Shown here: in pieces, positions 1,530-41,273 of the stretch
Layout of the letters: each line of letters starts with the position of its first letter
How positions within the stretch are numbered: the first letter of the stretch is position 1
Source of the DNA: an uncultured Clostridia bacterium
Lineage (GTDB): Bacteria > Bacillota > Clostridia > Oscillospirales > QAMX01
Reading direction: 5' to 3'
Assembly (NCBI GenBank): GCA_944380935.1
Contig: CALWJF010000063.1
Coordinates: 1-41,773 of the forward strand
Length of the DNA stretch: 41,773 nucleotides
Made by a program: the position numbers and the translations under genes
The notes under the pieces: model-generated
Databases searched by the model: none
Told to the model about the DNA's origin: nothing
Seen by the model: the letters and a program-made list of their open reading frames with translations, nothing else

Positions 1530-2654
1530 ATGGCCTCAAAAAAACGCAAAACCAAATATAGCCAGGGCGGGCGTCGGGATGAACGCCCGCCTGCGCAGCA
1601 GGATTTGCCGGTTTCCGAAATGCAGGCACAGCGCCGGGAAGCGCCTAAGGATACGCAGGGACATTCCGGATCAAAACGCAGACCGGTAAAACGGAAGATG
1701 CAGGCGCCGCGGAAGAAACGGGTTTCTGCTGGAACCGGAACAAATCCAGCGGTAGATGCCGGCCAATTACGCCGGCAGGCGGCTGTGCGTGCGCGAAAGG
1801 CACGTGCGCAGCAGGCGGCACAGGATCAGGCGCGTAAAGCCCGCCGACGGGCGAGACGGCAGGAAGCAAAAGCCGTTGAACCATTCCGTTTTAAAGAAGT
1901 GCGGCACCGTCCTGTGCTGTATCGCCGCAGCGACGGACGGACGGCGGAGATGATATATAAAAGTGCGTTAGGGATTGCCATTGCCCTGATCGTAGTTTTT
2001 GTGTTGTTCACGTTTTTCGAAGTGCGGACGATTCGCTGTGATGGTACGCAACGATATTCAGGGGAAGAAATTATTCATTACAGCGGGATTGAAATCGGGG
2101 ACAAGATGCTGTTTTTGAACCGCGGAAAAGCAGCGGACCGGATACTGAATGCTCTGCCTTATATTGAATCCGTGGCAATTCGTCAACAGTATCCGACGAC
2201 GGTGGATATTGAAGTAACGGAACGCACGCCAACAGCAAAAATTGTTGATGGCGGTATATCTTATATTATTGATGACGAGGGATACCTTTTAGAATATACG
2301 GTTGCAGGCGCATTGTATGATTTGCCGGAAATAATTTGTACGGCGCCAATAGAACTGGAGACAGGAAAACAGCTGGTTTTTGCAGATCCTTTGATGTTAG
2401 AGACGCTGCAAAATGTTCTTGCTTATATTGTAGGATCGGACTGGATTGTAAATATTGATAGTATAAATATAGAACGGATCTATTCTATCTCTTTCCAGTA
2501 TCAGGGTCGGATTACAGTCCTGCTGGGGGACACGTCGGATCTGGAGATGAAGCTTGCATTGCTGGCGGAAGTGCTCGAACGCAACAGTGAAGAGGCTTCC
2601 GGAACGATTGATGTGTCCAATATCGAACGAGTAAGTTTCCAGCCGCTGCGTTAA
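1530..2654 (+). CDS. ftsQ: Cell-division protein FtsQ/DivIB with long basic N-terminus
   Basis: Bitopic membrane protein of the divisome that forms a complex with FtsL/DivIC and FtsB/FtsL-type proteins at the septum. The 374 residues show a cytoplasmic region of about 140 residues extremely rich in Arg, Lys, Gln and Ala, one transmembrane helix at about 146-163, and then an extracytoplasmic POTRA domain (from about residue 164, VRTIRCDG onward) followed by the FtsQ beta domain. I chose the ATG at 1530, six bases after a GGAG, rather than the upstream in-frame ATG at 1512 inside murA. The basic leader is much longer than the short cytoplasmic tail of most FtsQ proteins. It lies between murA and ftsZ, where clostridial clusters carry this gene. 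Confidence 0.9.
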   Translation: MASKKRKTKYSQGGRRDERPPAQQDLPVSEMQAQRREAPKDTQGHSGSKRRPVKRKMQAPRKKRVSAGTGTNPAVDAGQLRRQAAVRARKARAQQAAQDQARKARRRARRQEAKAVEPFRFKEVRHRPVLYRRSDGRTAEMIYKSALGIAIALIVVFVLFTFFEVRTIRCDGTQRYSGEEIIHYSGIEIGDKMLFLNRGKAADRILNALPYIESVAIRQQYPTTVDIEVTERTPTAKIVDGGISYIIDDEGYLLEYTVAGALYDLPEIICTAPIELETGKQLVFADPLMLETLQNVLAYIVGSDWIVNIDSINIERIYSISFQYQGRITVLLGDTSDLEMKLALLAEVLERNSEEASGTIDVSNIERVSFQPLR

Positions 2655-2738: not shown

Positions 2739-2795
2739 AGTTTTAAGCGTAGAATAGTGATTTTAGAATATGCATCTCTACTTGGGGGTAAGAAA

Positions 2796-3935
2796 ATGGG
2801 CTTTGAATTTGAAAACGGCACGGATAATGTTGTTACAATAAAAGTAATCGGTGTTGGCGGCGGCGGAAATAATGCGGTCAACCGTATGATAGAAAGTGGA
2901 ATACGCGGCGTGGAATTTGTTTCGCTGAATACGGACAAGCAGGCGCTGATGCATTCGGCAGCGCCCCGTAAGCTTCAGATTGGCGATAAGTTGACGAAGG
3001 GATTTGGAGCAGGATCAAACCCGGAAGTAGGGAAAAAAGCGGCGGAAGAAACCAGGAGCGAAATTTCTAAATTGTTGGAAGATACCGATATGGTGTTTAT
3101 CACTGCGGGTATGGGCGGAGGCACTGGTACCGGTGCGGCGCCTGTTGTTGCAGAAGTGGCCCGTGAACGGGAAATTTTGACCATAGGGGTTGTAACACGT
3201 CCGTTTGACTTTGAAGGTTCCAAACGCCGTTTGCAGGCAGAAGCTGGGATAGAAGAAATGCGCGGCAAGGTTGACGCGCTTATCGTAATTCCAAATGAAC
3301 GGCTGAAGCTGGTGAGCGACCAGAAGATCACGTTTAAAAATGCATTCGAAATTGCCGATAACGTGCTGAAGCAGGCAATCCAGAGTATTTCTGAGTTGAT
3401 TACGATGGAAGGTATCGTAAACCTTGATTTCGCCGATGTAACTGCGATTATGAAGAATGCCGGCTATGCTCATATGGGTACCGGTACAGCTTCCGGCCGC
3501 GAAAAGGCGGAAGAAGCAGCCCGCATAGCGATACAGAGTCCGTTGCTTGAAACTTCCATTAAGGGCGCGCGCGGCGTGATCTTGAATATCACCGGATCGC
3601 CGGATATGACCCTTGAAGAAGTGGAAACGGCGGCTTCGATGGTTAAGGAAGCAGCACACGAAAGCGCGCATATTATCTTTGGCGCCTCTATTGATGAAAA
3701 TCTGGAGGATGAATTCCGTATTACGGTGATAGCGACGCAGTTTGATCATAAACCGACGTTGGAAGTTGACGCAATTGAATCTGAAAAAGAAGAGTATGCT
3801 GCCGAAACTGCACCGAAATCAGAAGCGGATGCGGCTTCTCCGGTTGCAGATTTTGACAGTAAGGATGATTTGTTTGACGATATTGATAAGATTTTCAAGC
3901 GTGGTTCAAGTCGTCGTGACAATTTTAACTTTTAA
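2796..3935 (+). CDS. ftsZ: Cell-division GTPase FtsZ
   Basis: Tubulin-like GTPase that polymerises into the cytokinetic Z ring. The 379-residue protein has the nucleotide-binding start [15 protein letters not shown] at about 17-31, the tubulin signature GGGTGTG at 107-113, and the T7 synergy loop NLDFADV at 209-215 that completes the neighbouring active site. A variable acidic linker starts near residue 325, and the tail ends [14 protein letters not shown] plus a short DNFNF extension, where FtsA and SepF would bind. The start at 2796 follows a run of five G at 2784-2788; an upstream in-frame start at 2757 would add 13 unconserved residues. The gene has its own promoter and lies 8 bases before the glycosylase gene. 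Confidence 0.97.
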
Positions 3936-3943
3936 GTGTAAAA

Positions 3944-4522
3944 ATGACGGATGCAGAGCGTTTCGAACAGCTTCGGACGAATTGTCTTGCTTGTACGCGC
4001 TGTAGTTTGCGGCAGGGTTGCCAAAATGTGGTGTTCGGGACAGGCCCGGTTCCGGCAGATATTCTGTTTATCGGGGAAGGCCCGGGCGAGCAGGAGGATT
4101 TGAGCGGGGAACCGTTTGTCGGTCCCGCAGGCCGGCTTTTAAACGACTATTTATGCGCAGTGGGAATTGAACGGGAAAGCGTCTATATCGCCAATATTGT
4201 TAAATGCCGCCCGCCCCATAACCGGGACCCGCTTCCAGAGGAACAGGAAGCCTGTATCCCTTGGCTTCGTGCCCAGACGAAACTGGTTCATCCTAAAATT
4301 ATCGTATGCTTGGGGCGAATTGCCGCTATGCGGATTATACGGCAGGATTTTCGTATTACTCGTGAACATGGGCAATGGTTTGAAAAAGGCGCGTTTTCGA
4401 TTACCGCAACTTTTCATCCTTCTGCACTTTTGCGTAATCCGCAAAATCGAAGCGCAGCATATGAAGATTTCATTTTAATTGCAGAACGTCGCGCGGCATT
4501 ATATGGACGCCAGCGGGATTAG
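3944..4522 (+). CDS. Family 4 uracil-DNA glycosylase (Fe-S type)
   Basis: Excises uracil from DNA to start base-excision repair after cytosine deamination or dUMP incorporation. The 192 residues match the family 4 (UDGa) class. Four cysteines at 14, 17, 88 and 104 have the spacing of the [4Fe-4S] cluster ligands. Motif A is GEGPGEQED at about 44-52 and motif B is the HPSALLRNP segment near residue 165. There is no clear Shine-Dalgarno before the ATG at 3944; the gene begins 8 bases after the ftsZ stop, so translational coupling is likely. The terminator at 4541 closes the unit. A related family 5 enzyme is less likely because of the motif A sequence. Confidence 0.93.
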   Translation: MTDAERFEQLRTNCLACTRCSLRQGCQNVVFGTGPVPADILFIGEGPGEQEDLSGEPFVGPAGRLLNDYLCAVGIERESVYIANIVKCRPPHNRDPLPEEQEACIPWLRAQTKLVHPKIIVCLGRIAAMRIIRQDFRITREHGQWFEKGAFSITATFHPSALLRNPQNRSAAYEDFILIAERRAALYGRQRD

Positions 4523-4540
4523 AAGGTATAAAAGATCAAA

Positions 4541-4573
4541 AGAAGCCTGTAAATGCAACAGGCTTCTTTTTTT
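4541..4573 (+). terminator. Rho-independent terminator after the udg gene
   Basis: A perfect 10-bp stem, AGAAGCCTGT paired with ACAGGCTTCT, with a 7-base loop and a T run at 4567-4573. It ends the murA-ftsQ-ftsZ-udg transcription unit. Confidence 0.93.
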
Positions 4574-4674
4574 CTATATGTTTTAAGTAGAGGCTATGCA
4601 TGGGAATTATTAAAATAGAAGAAAAAACAAAACCCAAATTATCCAATGGAGTAGATAAAGGAAACAACCAAAAA

Positions 4675-5022
4675 AACAAATAGCCCCTTGTTCCTCTTTC
4701 AGAACAAGGGGCTATTCTACGCTTTTCGGTTCAATCACCTGTATCCCGTCTCCTTTCTTTTCACCGGTTCTTTCCATACAAATTTACCAAACTCTCTTCG
4801 ACCGTTTATCCGCATGCCGACAACGCGCATCAGATCTGTTTCATTCAATGGCCAGGGAATAAACTTGCTGGAAAAAACAAAAGCTTTTTTCTTTTTGCAA
4901 ATAGCCACCGCCGGTATAAAACAACCTTACCGGCACTGCTCAGAACATTGGACCCACCTCTTTCATTCGGCATAGAACCAATTTATCTAAACAATCCCGA
5001 AGGATTTGTCTTTGCTATTTAC
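4675..5022 (-). ncRNA. Candidate structured non-coding RNA, about 350 nt
   Basis: A complete minus-strand transcription unit without a convincing ORF. It starts 7 bases after a consensus promoter (predicted first base G5022) and ends at the 13-bp terminator stem. The predicted first nine bases (5022-5014, GTAAATAGC) pair with 4905-4897 (GCTATTTGC) with one wobble. This helix encloses three others: a UUCG-capped hairpin at 5009-4991, ATTGG 4982-4978 with CCAAT 4951-4947, and GCCGGTA 4934-4928 with TACCGGC 4916-4910. A second domain pairs 4864-4856 with 4811-4804 (one bulge) around a small hairpin at 4830-4814. Signature motifs of RNase P RNA, tmRNA, SRP RNA and T-box leaders are absent. The family is unknown to me. 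A peptide-coding role is possible but less likely. Confidence 0.65.
4681..4714 (-). terminator. Rho-independent terminator of the minus-strand RNA
   Basis: A perfect 13-bp inverted repeat (TAGCCCCTTGTTC at 4681-4693, GAACAAGGGGCTA at 4702-4714) with an 8-base loop. Read on the minus strand the stem is followed by TTTGTTTTTTT (4670-4680), so it terminates leftward transcription. No convincing protein gene on that strand precedes it, which points to a non-coding transcript. Confidence 0.88.
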
Positions 5023-5028
5023 AGTTAC

Positions 5029-5057
5029 AGTATACAAATTCTTTTTTAATTTGTCAA
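5029..5057 (-). promoter_or_regulatory. Consensus promoter of the minus-strand RNA
   Basis: On the minus strand TTGACA (5057-5052), a 17-base spacer, and TATACT (5034-5029). This matches the sigma-A consensus except for one base in the -10 box, so strong constitutive transcription leftward is expected. Confidence 0.85.
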
Positions 5058-5096: not shown

Positions 5097-5124
5097 TTGA
5101 CAAAAAAAGATTATAGCGTAAAAT
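5097..5124 (+). promoter_or_regulatory. Promoter of the GH120 xylosidase gene
   Basis: TTGACA at 5097-5102, a 16-base spacer, and TAAAAT at 5119-5124, about 50 bases before the xylosidase start. It is divergent from the RNA promoter. The 39 bases between the two -35 boxes are almost pure A/T with an AAAATA...TATTTT dyad at about 5068-5087, a possible regulator site. Confidence 0.75.
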
Positions 5125-5175
5125 GAAATTAAAATTTATAAATTGAAAGGCATGCGGAAACAGGAGGGAAGACAA

Positions 5176-7197
5176 ATGATTTACTATGTTAATGCCAACG
5201 CGGTTTGCGATGGGAATGGAACAAAACAATGCCCGTTTCGGCACATCCAGGACGCTGCGGATCTCGCAGTAGCGGGAGATGAGATTCTTGTTGCACCGGG
5301 AATTTACCGGGAATATGTGAATCCGAAAAATCCCGGGCGTGAGGATGCGCGCATTGTGTACCGTTCCGAGATCCCGCTTGCCGCAGTCATCACAGGTGCA
5401 GAGCAGATCAAAAATTGGAACAAGTACGAAGGCGACACGTACGTTGCCCGTATTGGCAATGGTATTTTTGGCGCATATAATCCTTATACTGCCCAAATCT
5501 GGGGCGACTGGTACACAAGCGCATTGCCGGTTCACACAGGAGAAGTATATATAAATGGGCATTCCCTGTATGAAACGCAGTCGCTTCAACAGGTCCTGGA
5601 TGCCCAACCGCATGAAGCGTCTTGGGAAGACCATGCATGGACACGGCACCGTTGGTATGCCTGTCAGGATGGGAATGAGACGGTAATATATGTTAATTTC
5701 TTGGGAATGGACCCAAATGAACTGGATGTAGAGATCAATGTACGACGCAATTGCTTTTATCCGGCGCAGGAAGGCATAAATTATATCACCCTTTCAGGCT
5801 TCACGGTACGGCAGGCAGCTACCACTTGGGCGCCTCCGACAGCTTATCAGGAAGGGATGGTCGGTCCGCATTGGTCGAAGGGATGGATAATCGAAGACTG
5901 TGACATTTCCAATTCAAAATGCTGTGGAATTTCGCTGGGCAAATATCTCCAACCCAATAATGAAAACAAATGGACGTTGAAGTTGGTTAAAGACGGCACA
6001 CAGACTGAACGCGATGCAATTTGTCAGGCACAACGCGAAGGCTGGGTAAAGGAAAAAATTGGAGGACATACGATCCGGCGCTGTAATATCCATCACTGTG
6101 AACAAACCGGCATTGTCGGCCATCTTGGCGGCGTTTTTTCGGTAATTGAAGATAATCATATCCATCATATCAATAATAAACAGCAGCTTGGCGGCGCAGA
6201 AATCGGCGGGATTAAGCTGCATGCGGCGATTGACGTTATTATCCGCCGCAATCATTTCCACCATTGTACGCGTGGGCTATGGCTTGACTGGCAGGCACAG
6301 GGCACGCGTGTGACGCAGAACTTGTTCCATGATAATATGCCGCCGGCACATGCGAAGGGAATGCAGGGTTTAAGTATTGGAGAGGATGTTTTTGTTGAAG
6401 TCAGTCACGGCCCGACCCTTTTAGACAATAACCTTTTCCTTTCTACTTTTGCCGGACGGCTTTCTACGCAAGGCTTAGCTTATGTACACAATCTGGTGGC
6501 AGGTTCTTTTACTTTTGTCGGCGCCGGTACGCAAAATCCTAAAACCGGTCAGCCCCGCTATACGCCGTATCATGTCCCGCACAGAACGGAAATTAACGGA
6601 TTTATGTCGATTCTCCATGGCGACGACCGGTTCTATAATAACATTTTTGTGCAGGGAGAGGTTCCCGCAGCCTATTTGGAAACTCCGAGACCAGTCGGCA
6701 ATCTGCCGGCATCTGAACCGCTGAATTGCGAAGTCGGACTTTCCTGTTTCGATGAATATCCTACAGAGGAAGCGTGGAAAGAACTTTTCTTCGGCGTAAA
6801 GGGCGAAAATCCAATCGAAATCCGTATGCGCCGGCGCGAGGCTTATTTCCATAAGCTGCCGGTTTGGACGGGCGGCAATGCTTATTTTAACGGTGCGAAA
6901 CCGCAGTGCAATGAGAAAGATGCCCTTCTTGCTCCGGGCAAGGCAGAAATTAAGCTTGTTGAAAAAGAGGATGGTATTTATTTGGAGACAAACCTTTATG
7001 ATTTGCTGCCTGAAACGCAAACGAGTGTGATTTCAACGGAAACATTGGGAGAGGCGTTTGAGCCGGAACAGAAATACGAAAATCCGGACGGTACGCCGAT
7101 CGTCTTTAACCGGGACTATTTTGGCGGCCATCGCGGCGCCAGCCCGCTGCCGGGACCCTTTGCGTGTCCGGCATATGCAGAAAAACGCCTGTTTTAA
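5176..7197 (+). CDS. GH120-family beta-xylosidase, right-handed beta-helix
   Basis: A 673-residue glycoside hydrolase predicted to remove xylose from xylo-oligosaccharides. From memory it aligns along its length with the characterised GH120 enzyme XylC of Thermoanaerobacterium saccharolyticum: the N-terminal YYVNANAVCDGNGT strand, WAPPTA near 219-224, WSKGWIIEDCDISNSKC near 233-249, GIVGHLGGVFS near 312-322, GLWLDWQAQGTRV at 367-379 and DVFVEVSHGP at 404-413. The family nucleophile and acid/base residues correspond to Asp371 and Glu408. Asp and Glu are 23 residues apart in XylC but 37 here, so about 14 residues are inserted between them. There is no signal peptide, so it should act on imported oligosaccharides in the cytoplasm. 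Start ATG 5176 follows GGAGGGA; an in-frame TTG at 5143 is less likely. The GNAT gene follows by 41 bases. Confidence 0.9.
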   Translation: MIYYVNANAVCDGNGTKQCPFRHIQDAADLAVAGDEILVAPGIYREYVNPKNPGREDARIVYRSEIPLAAVITGAEQIKNWNKYEGDTYVARIGNGIFGAYNPYTAQIWGDWYTSALPVHTGEVYINGHSLYETQSLQQVLDAQPHEASWEDHAWTRHRWYACQDGNETVIYVNFLGMDPNELDVEINVRRNCFYPAQEGINYITLSGFTVRQAATTWAPPTAYQEGMVGPHWSKGWIIEDCDISNSKCCGISLGKYLQPNNENKWTLKLVKDGTQTERDAICQAQREGWVKEKIGGHTIRRCNIHHCEQTGIVGHLGGVFSVIEDNHIHHINNKQQLGGAEIGGIKLHAAIDVIIRRNHFHHCTRGLWLDWQAQGTRVTQNLFHDNMPPAHAKGMQGLSIGEDVFVEVSHGPTLLDNNLFLSTFAGRLSTQGLAYVHNLVAGSFTFVGAGTQNPKTGQPRYTPYHVPHRTEINGFMSILHGDDRFYNNIFVQGEVPAAYLETPRPVGNLPASEPLNCEVGLSCFDEYPTEEAWKELFFGVKGENPIEIRMRRREAYFHKLPVWTGGNAYFNGAKPQCNEKDALLAPGKAEIKLVEKEDGIYLETNLYDLLPETQTSVISTETLGEAFEPEQKYENPDGTPIVFNRDYFGGHRGASPLPGPFACPAYAEKRLF

Positions 7198-9728: not shown

Positions 9729-9757
9729 TTGACAGGTGGTTTGCGACGTATTATAAT
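9729..9757 (+). promoter_or_regulatory. Consensus sigma-A promoter for the valS leader
   Basis: TTGACA at 9729-9734, a 17-base spacer and TATAAT at 9752-9757: a perfect consensus. Transcription would start near 9764 and run into the T-box leader. Confidence 0.92.
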
Positions 9758-9763
9758 AAGGAT

Positions 9764-10043
9764 AATTTAATAGGGAAAAAGGCGTTGAAAAGGAGGAGTA
9801 CTATCCCTGTAAAGCGTAGAGAGAAACTGTTTGGGTGTAAAGTTTCGTGCGCAGGAATAGGAAGGTAGCCTTGGAGCCGCAGACCGAACGTAAAAAATAC
9901 AAGTAGACTCTGCCGGAGGCCCACCGATATAGGGGAACCGGGTATGGGAATGTATCCGAAAAAGGGACACGGTTTTTGTGTCTGAATCAGGTTGGTACCG
10001 CGAAGCATGCCTTCGCCCTGTTGTACAGGGCGAAGGCATTTTT
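9764..10043 (+). promoter_or_regulatory. T-box riboswitch controlling valS (valine specifier GUA)
   Basis: A tRNA-sensing leader. The T-box core GTTGGTACCGCG is at 9991-10002. The specifier loop GAAC-GTA is at 9886-9892, so the codon GUA (9890-9892) would be read by tRNA-Val; an AGTA motif at about 9798-9801 fits the opposite side of the specifier loop. Uncharged tRNA-Val would stabilise the antiterminator and allow valS expression; charged tRNA would let the terminator form. Confidence 0.93.
10008..10043 (+). terminator. Regulated terminator of the valS T-box
   Basis: A 13-bp perfect stem, TGCCTTCGCCCTG with CAGGGCGAAGGCA, a 5-base loop and five T. It lies directly after the T-box core and is the off state of the leader. 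Confidence 0.93.
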
Positions 10044-15648: not shown

Positions 15649-16200
15649 ATGGATCGTTTTGGATTAATACGGGAAAAGAAAGATATAAAATACTTAATAT
15701 TGTATACAATGTCATTGCTTGAACAGGCGCTGTCGCAGGATGATATTGCAGAATGCGCCATGTGTGATGGCGGCTTTGGTTATTTTGAGTTTTGTGACGC
15801 TTTTGCAGAACTGCAAAGAGATGGGAACCTTATTTCAACACACAGTCTTCCGCCGCTTTACCAGTTGTCTCCGGATGGCCGTCGCGCTGCACAGATTTTT
15901 TCCAAATCGCTGCCTTCCCCTGTACAAGCACAGGCAAGGCTTGCCGCTGCGAAAATGGGCGCGCGGCTGCGTCGGGATGCGGTTGTACGCACATCACATG
16001 AGACAAATGCAGATGGTACAGTGCGTGTAAAATTGGGGTTTATGGATGGAGATGACCCGGTATTTGCCTTCGAACTGATGGTGGCGAATACTGCGCAAGC
16101 TGTCGCATATGAAGAAAATTTTCGCCGCCATGCGGAAAAAATTTATGATGGGATACTCTGCGTGTTGACCAACGATTATAAAAACGAAGATGAAGAATAG
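15649..16200 (+). CDS. DUF4364 family protein
   Basis: A 183-residue protein that I recognise as DUF4364, a clostridial family of unknown function. The first 80 residues (IKYLILYTMSLLEQALSQDDI..., YFEFCDAFAELQRDGNLI, YQLSPDGRRAAQIF) look like a winged-helix fold with the recognition helix and wing, so DNA binding is plausible. The C-terminal half is a mixed alpha/beta region. It ends with an acidic tail. It is 18 bases after the DivIVA-like gene, so the two form one unit closed by the terminator at 16221. Confidence 0.75.
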   Translation: MDRFGLIREKKDIKYLILYTMSLLEQALSQDDIAECAMCDGGFGYFEFCDAFAELQRDGNLISTHSLPPLYQLSPDGRRAAQIFSKSLPSPVQAQARLAAAKMGARLRRDAVVRTSHETNADGTVRVKLGFMDGDDPVFAFELMVANTAQAVAYEENFRRHAEKIYDGILCVLTNDYKNEDEE

Positions 16201-16220
16201 AGAAAAAAGAACAGATAAAG

Positions 16221-16260
16221 AAAAAGCGTACCCTGCCTTTCGGCGGGGTACGCTTTTTTT
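16221..16260 (+). terminator. Terminator after the DUF4364 gene
   Basis: A 14-bp stem, AAGCGTACCCTGCC with GGCGGGGTACGCTT (one T-G pair), a 4-base loop TTTC, and a T run to 16260. It insulates the sporulation operon that follows. Confidence 0.95.
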
Positions 16261-16296
16261 GATTTGAGAAAACGGTGAGAATAAAACAACCATATG

Positions 16297-16325
16297 GAAT
16301 AACTGCTGTATGCAATGCATAGGAT
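16297..16325 (+). promoter_or_regulatory. Candidate sigma-E promoter of spoIIIAA-AH
   Basis: GAATAAC at 16297-16303, a 14-base spacer and CATAGGAT at 16318-16325. The known Bacillus subtilis sigma-E consensus is KMATATT, 14 bases, CATACAHT; this matches 5 of 7 and 6 of 8 positions. It lies 26 bases before the spoIIIAA start. Mother-cell transcription of spoIIIA by sigma-E is established in B. subtilis. Confidence 0.6.
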
Positions 16326-16351
16326 GGGACATGCAAAGGAGGCGATCCGGA

Positions 16352-40930: not shown

Positions 40931-40974
40931 GTGGGCCGGTTAATAAATTGCAAATATTTTAAATCTATAAAAAA

Positions 40975-41016
40975 TGCGCGTATTTGTCATTTCGTGGCAA
41001 AATACGCGCACTTTTT
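40975..41016 (+). terminator. Terminator after spoIVA
   Basis: Stem TGCGCGTATTT (40975-40985) with AAATACGCGCA (41000-41010), extended by a G-C pair across a bulged A, then CTTTTT. It ends the sipL-spoIVA unit. Confidence 0.9.
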
Positions 41017-41273
41017 ATACGTAATTTTACTTAAAAAAGACGGGTAAAGTACAAAACGGATAAAAAAATACACAAAATTAAAATAATCGATAAATAAAAC
41101 CCGTGATTTTACACATAATTGTTATAAATAATTAAATAATCCAAATCAATCGGATTTTGAATTACCGTCTTAAGCGGTTTGTCTGTTTTGAATTGATGCA
41201 ATAAAGATGATTTTTCGCTATTTGCCTGTGTCGAAATAGACGTTTATATTCGGTTAAAATCAGGGCATTTTTG
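41017..41273. other. AT-rich intergenic region before hppA
   Basis: No gene is supported. The segment is strongly AT-rich with in-frame stops in every frame. ACGGGT (about 41041) and ACCCGT (about 41099) could pair over a distance of some 50 bases, and ATCC/GGAT near 41141-41157 forms a small hairpin. A second possible promoter (TTGCCT 41222-41227, 17 bases, TATATT 41245-41250) lies here. A minus-strand open frame across 41162-41428 is antisense to hppA and unsupported. Confidence 0.5.

Follow-up and report, generated by a model that had tools for sequence, protein, structure and literature searches.

A candidate lineage-specific small RNA gene with its own promoter and terminator in an uncultured Clostridia bacterium

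The spacer between the genes for uracil-DNA glycosylase (UDG) and a beta-helix protein in an uncultured gut-type Clostridia bacterium raises the question of whether its minus strand carries a gene for a stand-alone RNA and, if so, of what kind. We analysed the whole 41.8-kb stretch of contig in which it lies (hereafter the window), from which the initial annotation had chosen this spacer as the best candidate, describing it as an abundant structured RNA of unknown class or possibly a raiA RNA. As discussed below, the likeliest reading is an ordinary small RNA specific to its lineage, its class and function unproven; the fuller proposition, that it is a stand-alone, single-copy small RNA gene apparently confined to one lineage, strikes us as evenly balanced. 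Features of the locus are collected in Table 1.

Table 1. Features predicted at the candidate locus and in its surroundings (positions are those of the window).
Feature	Position	Strand	Remarks
ftsZ	2757-3935	plus	upstream of the UDG gene
UDG gene	3944-4522	plus	comes after ftsZ
Second hairpin	4538-4570		UDG gene terminator on the plus strand; would halt minus-strand read-through too
Intrinsic terminator	4678-4717	minus	stem, then T-rich run; called on the minus strand only
21-codon open frame MERTGEKKGDGIQVIEPKSVE	4712-4777	minus	coding-like codons, purine-rich, ends at terminator
3' region	4718-4896	minus	no significant structure (z -0.9); small open frames
57-codon open frame, GTG start	4735-4908	minus	codon use scores lower than in any coding window
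P1 3' arm and flank GGUGGCUAUUUGC	4897-4909	minus	4906-4899 could alternatively pair with terminator 5' arm 4717-4710
Structured 5' domain, closed by P1	4897-5022	minus	126 nt; z -4.4; probability of P1 and AUUGG hairpin ~0.998
GCCGGUA/UACCGGC hairpin	4910-4934	minus	minority fold, ~0.23
AUUGG/CCAAU hairpin	4947-4982	minus	in rod and junction folds alike; probability ~0.998
C(UUCG)G hairpin	4990-5010	minus	~21% of computed ensemble; bases paired differently in the rod
P1 5' arm GUAAAUAGC	5014-5022	minus	pairs with 4905-4897
Sigma-A type promoter TTGACA-17-TATACT	5029-5057	minus	transcription start predicted near 5022
Beta-helix protein gene with GH120 insertion domain	5143-7197	plus	

The minus-strand promoter proposed earlier is present. 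Counting sites with at most 1 mismatch to the consensus at a spacing of 17, we found 4 of this quality (11/12 consensus) in the window compared to the 0.14 expected from shuffles, none of which reached 4. The terminator and its T run were likewise confirmed, on the minus strand only. The predicted RNA is ~345 nt long, with ~305 nt separating promoter and terminator, and no minus-strand gene lies downstream of it, UDG and ftsZ being encoded on the opposite strand. A genuine transcription unit, bounded by a promoter and a terminator of its own, is probable, and its description as a stand-alone unit with a structured 5' domain is supported by the promoter, the one-way terminator and the stability computed for that domain (z -4.4). 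Elsewhere in the window, a perfect 12/12 promoter was observed at 9729-9757, before the valS T-box leader.

The whole RNA was computed to fold at -112.1 kcal/mol (z -5.8), a value to which the terminator contributes, and none of 100 shuffles was equally stable. Once the terminator was excluded, the signal could be placed in the 5' domain, whose stability none of 200 shuffles equaled, whereas 33 of 200 were as stable as the 3' region, the fold of which was not significant (z -4.4 vs -0.9). As a control, we scored 556 grid windows of 126 nt taken from both strands of the contig, of which 8 had z <= -4. The strongest were 4651-4776, which holds the candidate unit's own terminator, and those at 16201 and 40951, which hold terminator-type stems; all of the windows with z <= -4 that were checked proved to be terminator stems. 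The closing helix P1 (5022-5014/4905-4897), part of the initial annotation, was robust: it comprises 8 Watson-Crick pairs and 1 G-U pair with a pair probability of 0.997 in the computed ensemble, and in 1.1% of shuffles the first 9 nt formed an equally good helix with a partner at positions 60-200. Like the AUUGG/CCAAU hairpin, P1 is part of the rod as well as of the junction described next. The three-helix junction that P1 had been said to close held up in part. Although the sequence of its UUCG hairpin is present, the exact junction, with the UUCG and GCCGGUA hairpins, is a minority fold accounting for ~0.21-0.23 of the ensemble; the low probability of both hairpins reflects the 2.3 kcal/mol advantage of one long rod (best energies -44.2 for the rod vs -41.9 for the junction), which is favoured ~4:1. 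The junction is a possible alternative to the rod; energies computed for a single sequence cannot choose between the two. A helix earlier assigned to a second domain (4864-4856/4811-4804) had a probability of ~1e-5 and falls in the region lacking a significant fold; the second domain was not borne out.

Searches for relatives returned no homologue. BLAST over 99 relatives, including all 20 other family members, and over 394 genomes of the order and 391 of the class (overlapping sets) gave only short matches. Those in the relatives fell on promoter, AT-run, ribosome-binding-site or coding stretches, and the ones inspected had no further similarity. The one strong match, in genome G447 (E 4e-7, first 37 nt), turned out to be a terminator hairpin downstream of a molybdenum cofactor riboswitch, and what the two sequences share is a C(UUCG)G hairpin. 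This match warns that the sequence of the 5' UUCG hairpin also occurs in ordinary terminators, an almost identical hairpin acting as one in an unrelated Clostridia genome. At locus L119, a Molybdenum/tungsten cofactor riboswitch was recorded at 1595-1715 (-) with 77.2 bits, its UUCG terminator hairpin being nearly identical to the candidate's first 35 nt. R1, a covariance model built for the 5' domain from one sequence and the 23 pairs that rod and junction share, detected no homologue in the family (more permissive filters) or in the order or class (stricter filters), and its best outside match (G192, E 0.036) was an ordinary terminator-like hairpin. Synteny traced from the UDG gene, in genomes of the family and at a further 80 loci, revealed nothing similar nearby. 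Phages and plasmids gave only matches of ~32-35 nt to the candidate, and matches of viral contigs to a 17-mer of the hairpin shared little outside that stretch. As far as the genomes searched show, the candidate would be a one-lineage RNA, the relatives compared including no other species of its genus. Because a claim of a new RNA class requires homologues with covariation, and neither BLAST nor R1 found any in the family, order or class genomes, the suggestion of an unknown class is not supported as a new class. The description of the RNA as abundant is not supported either.

Rfam searches of the locus found no described class. There was no match at gathering scores, and those at E up to 10 were far below these scores, the best lying on terminator hairpins. 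The search itself works, since the valS T-box, a positive control, was recovered in the same window. This T-box leader, at 9776-10023 (+) with 100.8 bits, precedes the valyl-tRNA synthetase gene. The candidate resembles raiA/ModT in being a stand-alone Bacillota RNA with a sigma-A promoter and its own terminator. ModT, the raiA RNA of C. difficile, is transcribed from a sigma-A promoter with an intergenic start, and the class has 8 helices and 2 pseudoknots, occurs in >2,500 species and is variable in synteny (PMC11706538). In contrast to raiA with its >2,500 species, the candidate is known in one, and it gave no match to the Rfam model (RF03072, 209 positions) at E up to 10. RF03072 was also without a match in the source genome and the 20 other family genomes, a result that is weak alone, as control genomes were silent too; the raiA negative rests mainly on the Rfam search of the locus. 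Together these findings make the raiA alternative unlikely. The favoured rod of the 5' domain is reminiscent of 6S RNA, but the domain measures 126 nt vs ~190 for 6S, model RF00013 had no match at the locus, and the genome's own 6S RNA (69.6 bits) lies on another contig beside a tRNA cluster. Neither a tRNA nor a tmRNA was found in the window, including the tRNA-like domain and tag frame that would mark the latter. Although a highly diverged representative of a known class (raiA/ModT, a second 6S, tmRNA or RNase P) would fit the size and stand-alone architecture, the failure of Rfam to give a convincing match with E up to 10, the clear 6S elsewhere, the lack of raiA in the family and the lack of tRNA or tmRNA in the window have already largely refuted it, and we consider it exceedingly improbable.

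Species-specific intergenic small RNAs of Gram-positive bacteria have their own promoter and an intrinsic terminator and are poorly conserved, traits that the candidate, known from sequence alone, shares. The small RNA reading is favoured by the promoter quality, the one-way terminator, the stability of the 5' domain and the lack of an Rfam family, together with noncoding-like long frames, no match in Pfam or PHROGs and no minus-strand gene after the unit. Counting against it are the lack of a homologue in the genomes searched, a 3' half lacking a significant fold and a 21-codon frame with coding-like codons. RNA polymerase carrying the housekeeping sigma factor would start near 5022 and stop at the terminator, and we infer that the resulting RNA is transcribed and noncoding. 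Its first 126 nt would form a stable P1-closed element that would protect the 5' end, while the less structured 3' part would stay free to pair with target mRNAs, such action in trans being an assumption drawn from how other small RNAs work. If transcribed, the candidate would add to the lineage-specific small RNA genes of uncultured Clostridia, for which RNA maps are scarce; if its helices covary in relatives, it would represent a new structured class and be of greater importance.

The same features were weighed under other explanations. Chance alone could have placed a promoter look-alike and an unconnected hairpin in an AT-rich spacer without any functional RNA, which would fit conservation having been found nowhere and the candidate having been picked as the best of its window; the near-consensus promoter, directional terminator and significant fold nevertheless occur in one unit and one orientation, and we regard chance as extremely unlikely. 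The promoter and terminator could instead serve a gene encoding a tiny protein, or be left over with the remnant of a longer gene, with the 5' fold as a leader. The earlier statement that the RNA holds no convincing open frame is borne out for the long frames: the longest (57 and 42 codons) had codon scores below every coding window of the contig, and a stop-free run of 63 codons occurred in 7.8% of shuffles. The 57-codon frame is probably not a gene. It matched a 210-residue protein of genome G009 with 43% over 47 residues, but the E of 0.0036 per genome is within chance over 99 genomes, and a profile of this protein and its relatives scored the region negative. Proteins of ~200 residues form a patchy family in this order (L139-L148), the G009 member of which had no Pfam match above the cut-off. 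The one reservation about the statement is the 21-codon frame, which ends at the terminator and whose codon score, reached by 0.07% of noncoding windows of equal length, lies above 99.9% of such frames. Purine richness explains part of this score, which was reached by 0.7% of 139 noncoding purine-rich windows, and the frame was one among many looked at. By inspection, no Shine-Dalgarno site was seen before either the 21- or the 57-codon frame, and none of the candidate's frames matched Pfam or PHROGs. A small coding unit or decayed gene is, in our judgment, somewhat unlikely.

A further explanation concerns a relation between P1 and the terminator that was noticed after the fact. The 3' arms of P1 and of the terminator both contain GGCUAUUUG, which enables the first of them to pair with the 5' arm of the terminator. 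The two stretches (4906-4899 and 4717-4710) can form 7 Watson-Crick pairs and 1 G-U pair, the arm complementarity looked for in riboswitches. Such a repeat is rare in shuffles: 0.6% had a match of at least 9 between the body of the RNA and the terminator 3' arm, and 0.36% one of at least 7 at the fixed P1 3' arm. At transcript lengths of 318-320, the P1 and antiterminator folds were equal in energy (-86.7 and -86.8). The locus might accordingly be a gene-less riboswitch- or attenuator-like switch, with the 5' domain as sensor and the length of the RNA itself as output: with P1 open, 4906-4899 would pair with 4717-4710 and allow read-through, and with P1 closed the terminator would form. Small RNAs under riboswitch control have precedents in EutX and Rli55. 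The candidate resembles riboswitches with an intrinsic-terminator platform in its P1-closed 5' domain and in the ability of the P1 3' arm to sequester the terminator 5' arm, but differs in lacking a downstream gene and an aptamer known to Rfam and in the ~180 nt between P1 and terminator; no aptamer shared among species and preceding a related gene was found at the candidate. Moreover, the terminator, once complete, is preferred by ~11 kcal/mol, and read-through would end at the second terminator ~110 nt further on. Such a switch is distinctly unlikely; if real, it would raise the importance of the candidate by placing a noncoding RNA under direct control of an RNA sensor. Very unlikely is the stronger version, a new structured class of regulated noncoding RNA in which the 5' domain senses a signal and competition between P1 and the terminator sets the RNA's own length.

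Two observations concern the surroundings of the candidate small RNA. A promoter-like site of the beta-helix gene (5097-5124) is divergent from the RNA promoter and ~40 bp apart from it. Two other sites in the window, 16190-16330 and 40945-41080, carry very strong hairpins of the terminator type flanked by A and T runs, both of which a simple terminator scan had missed.
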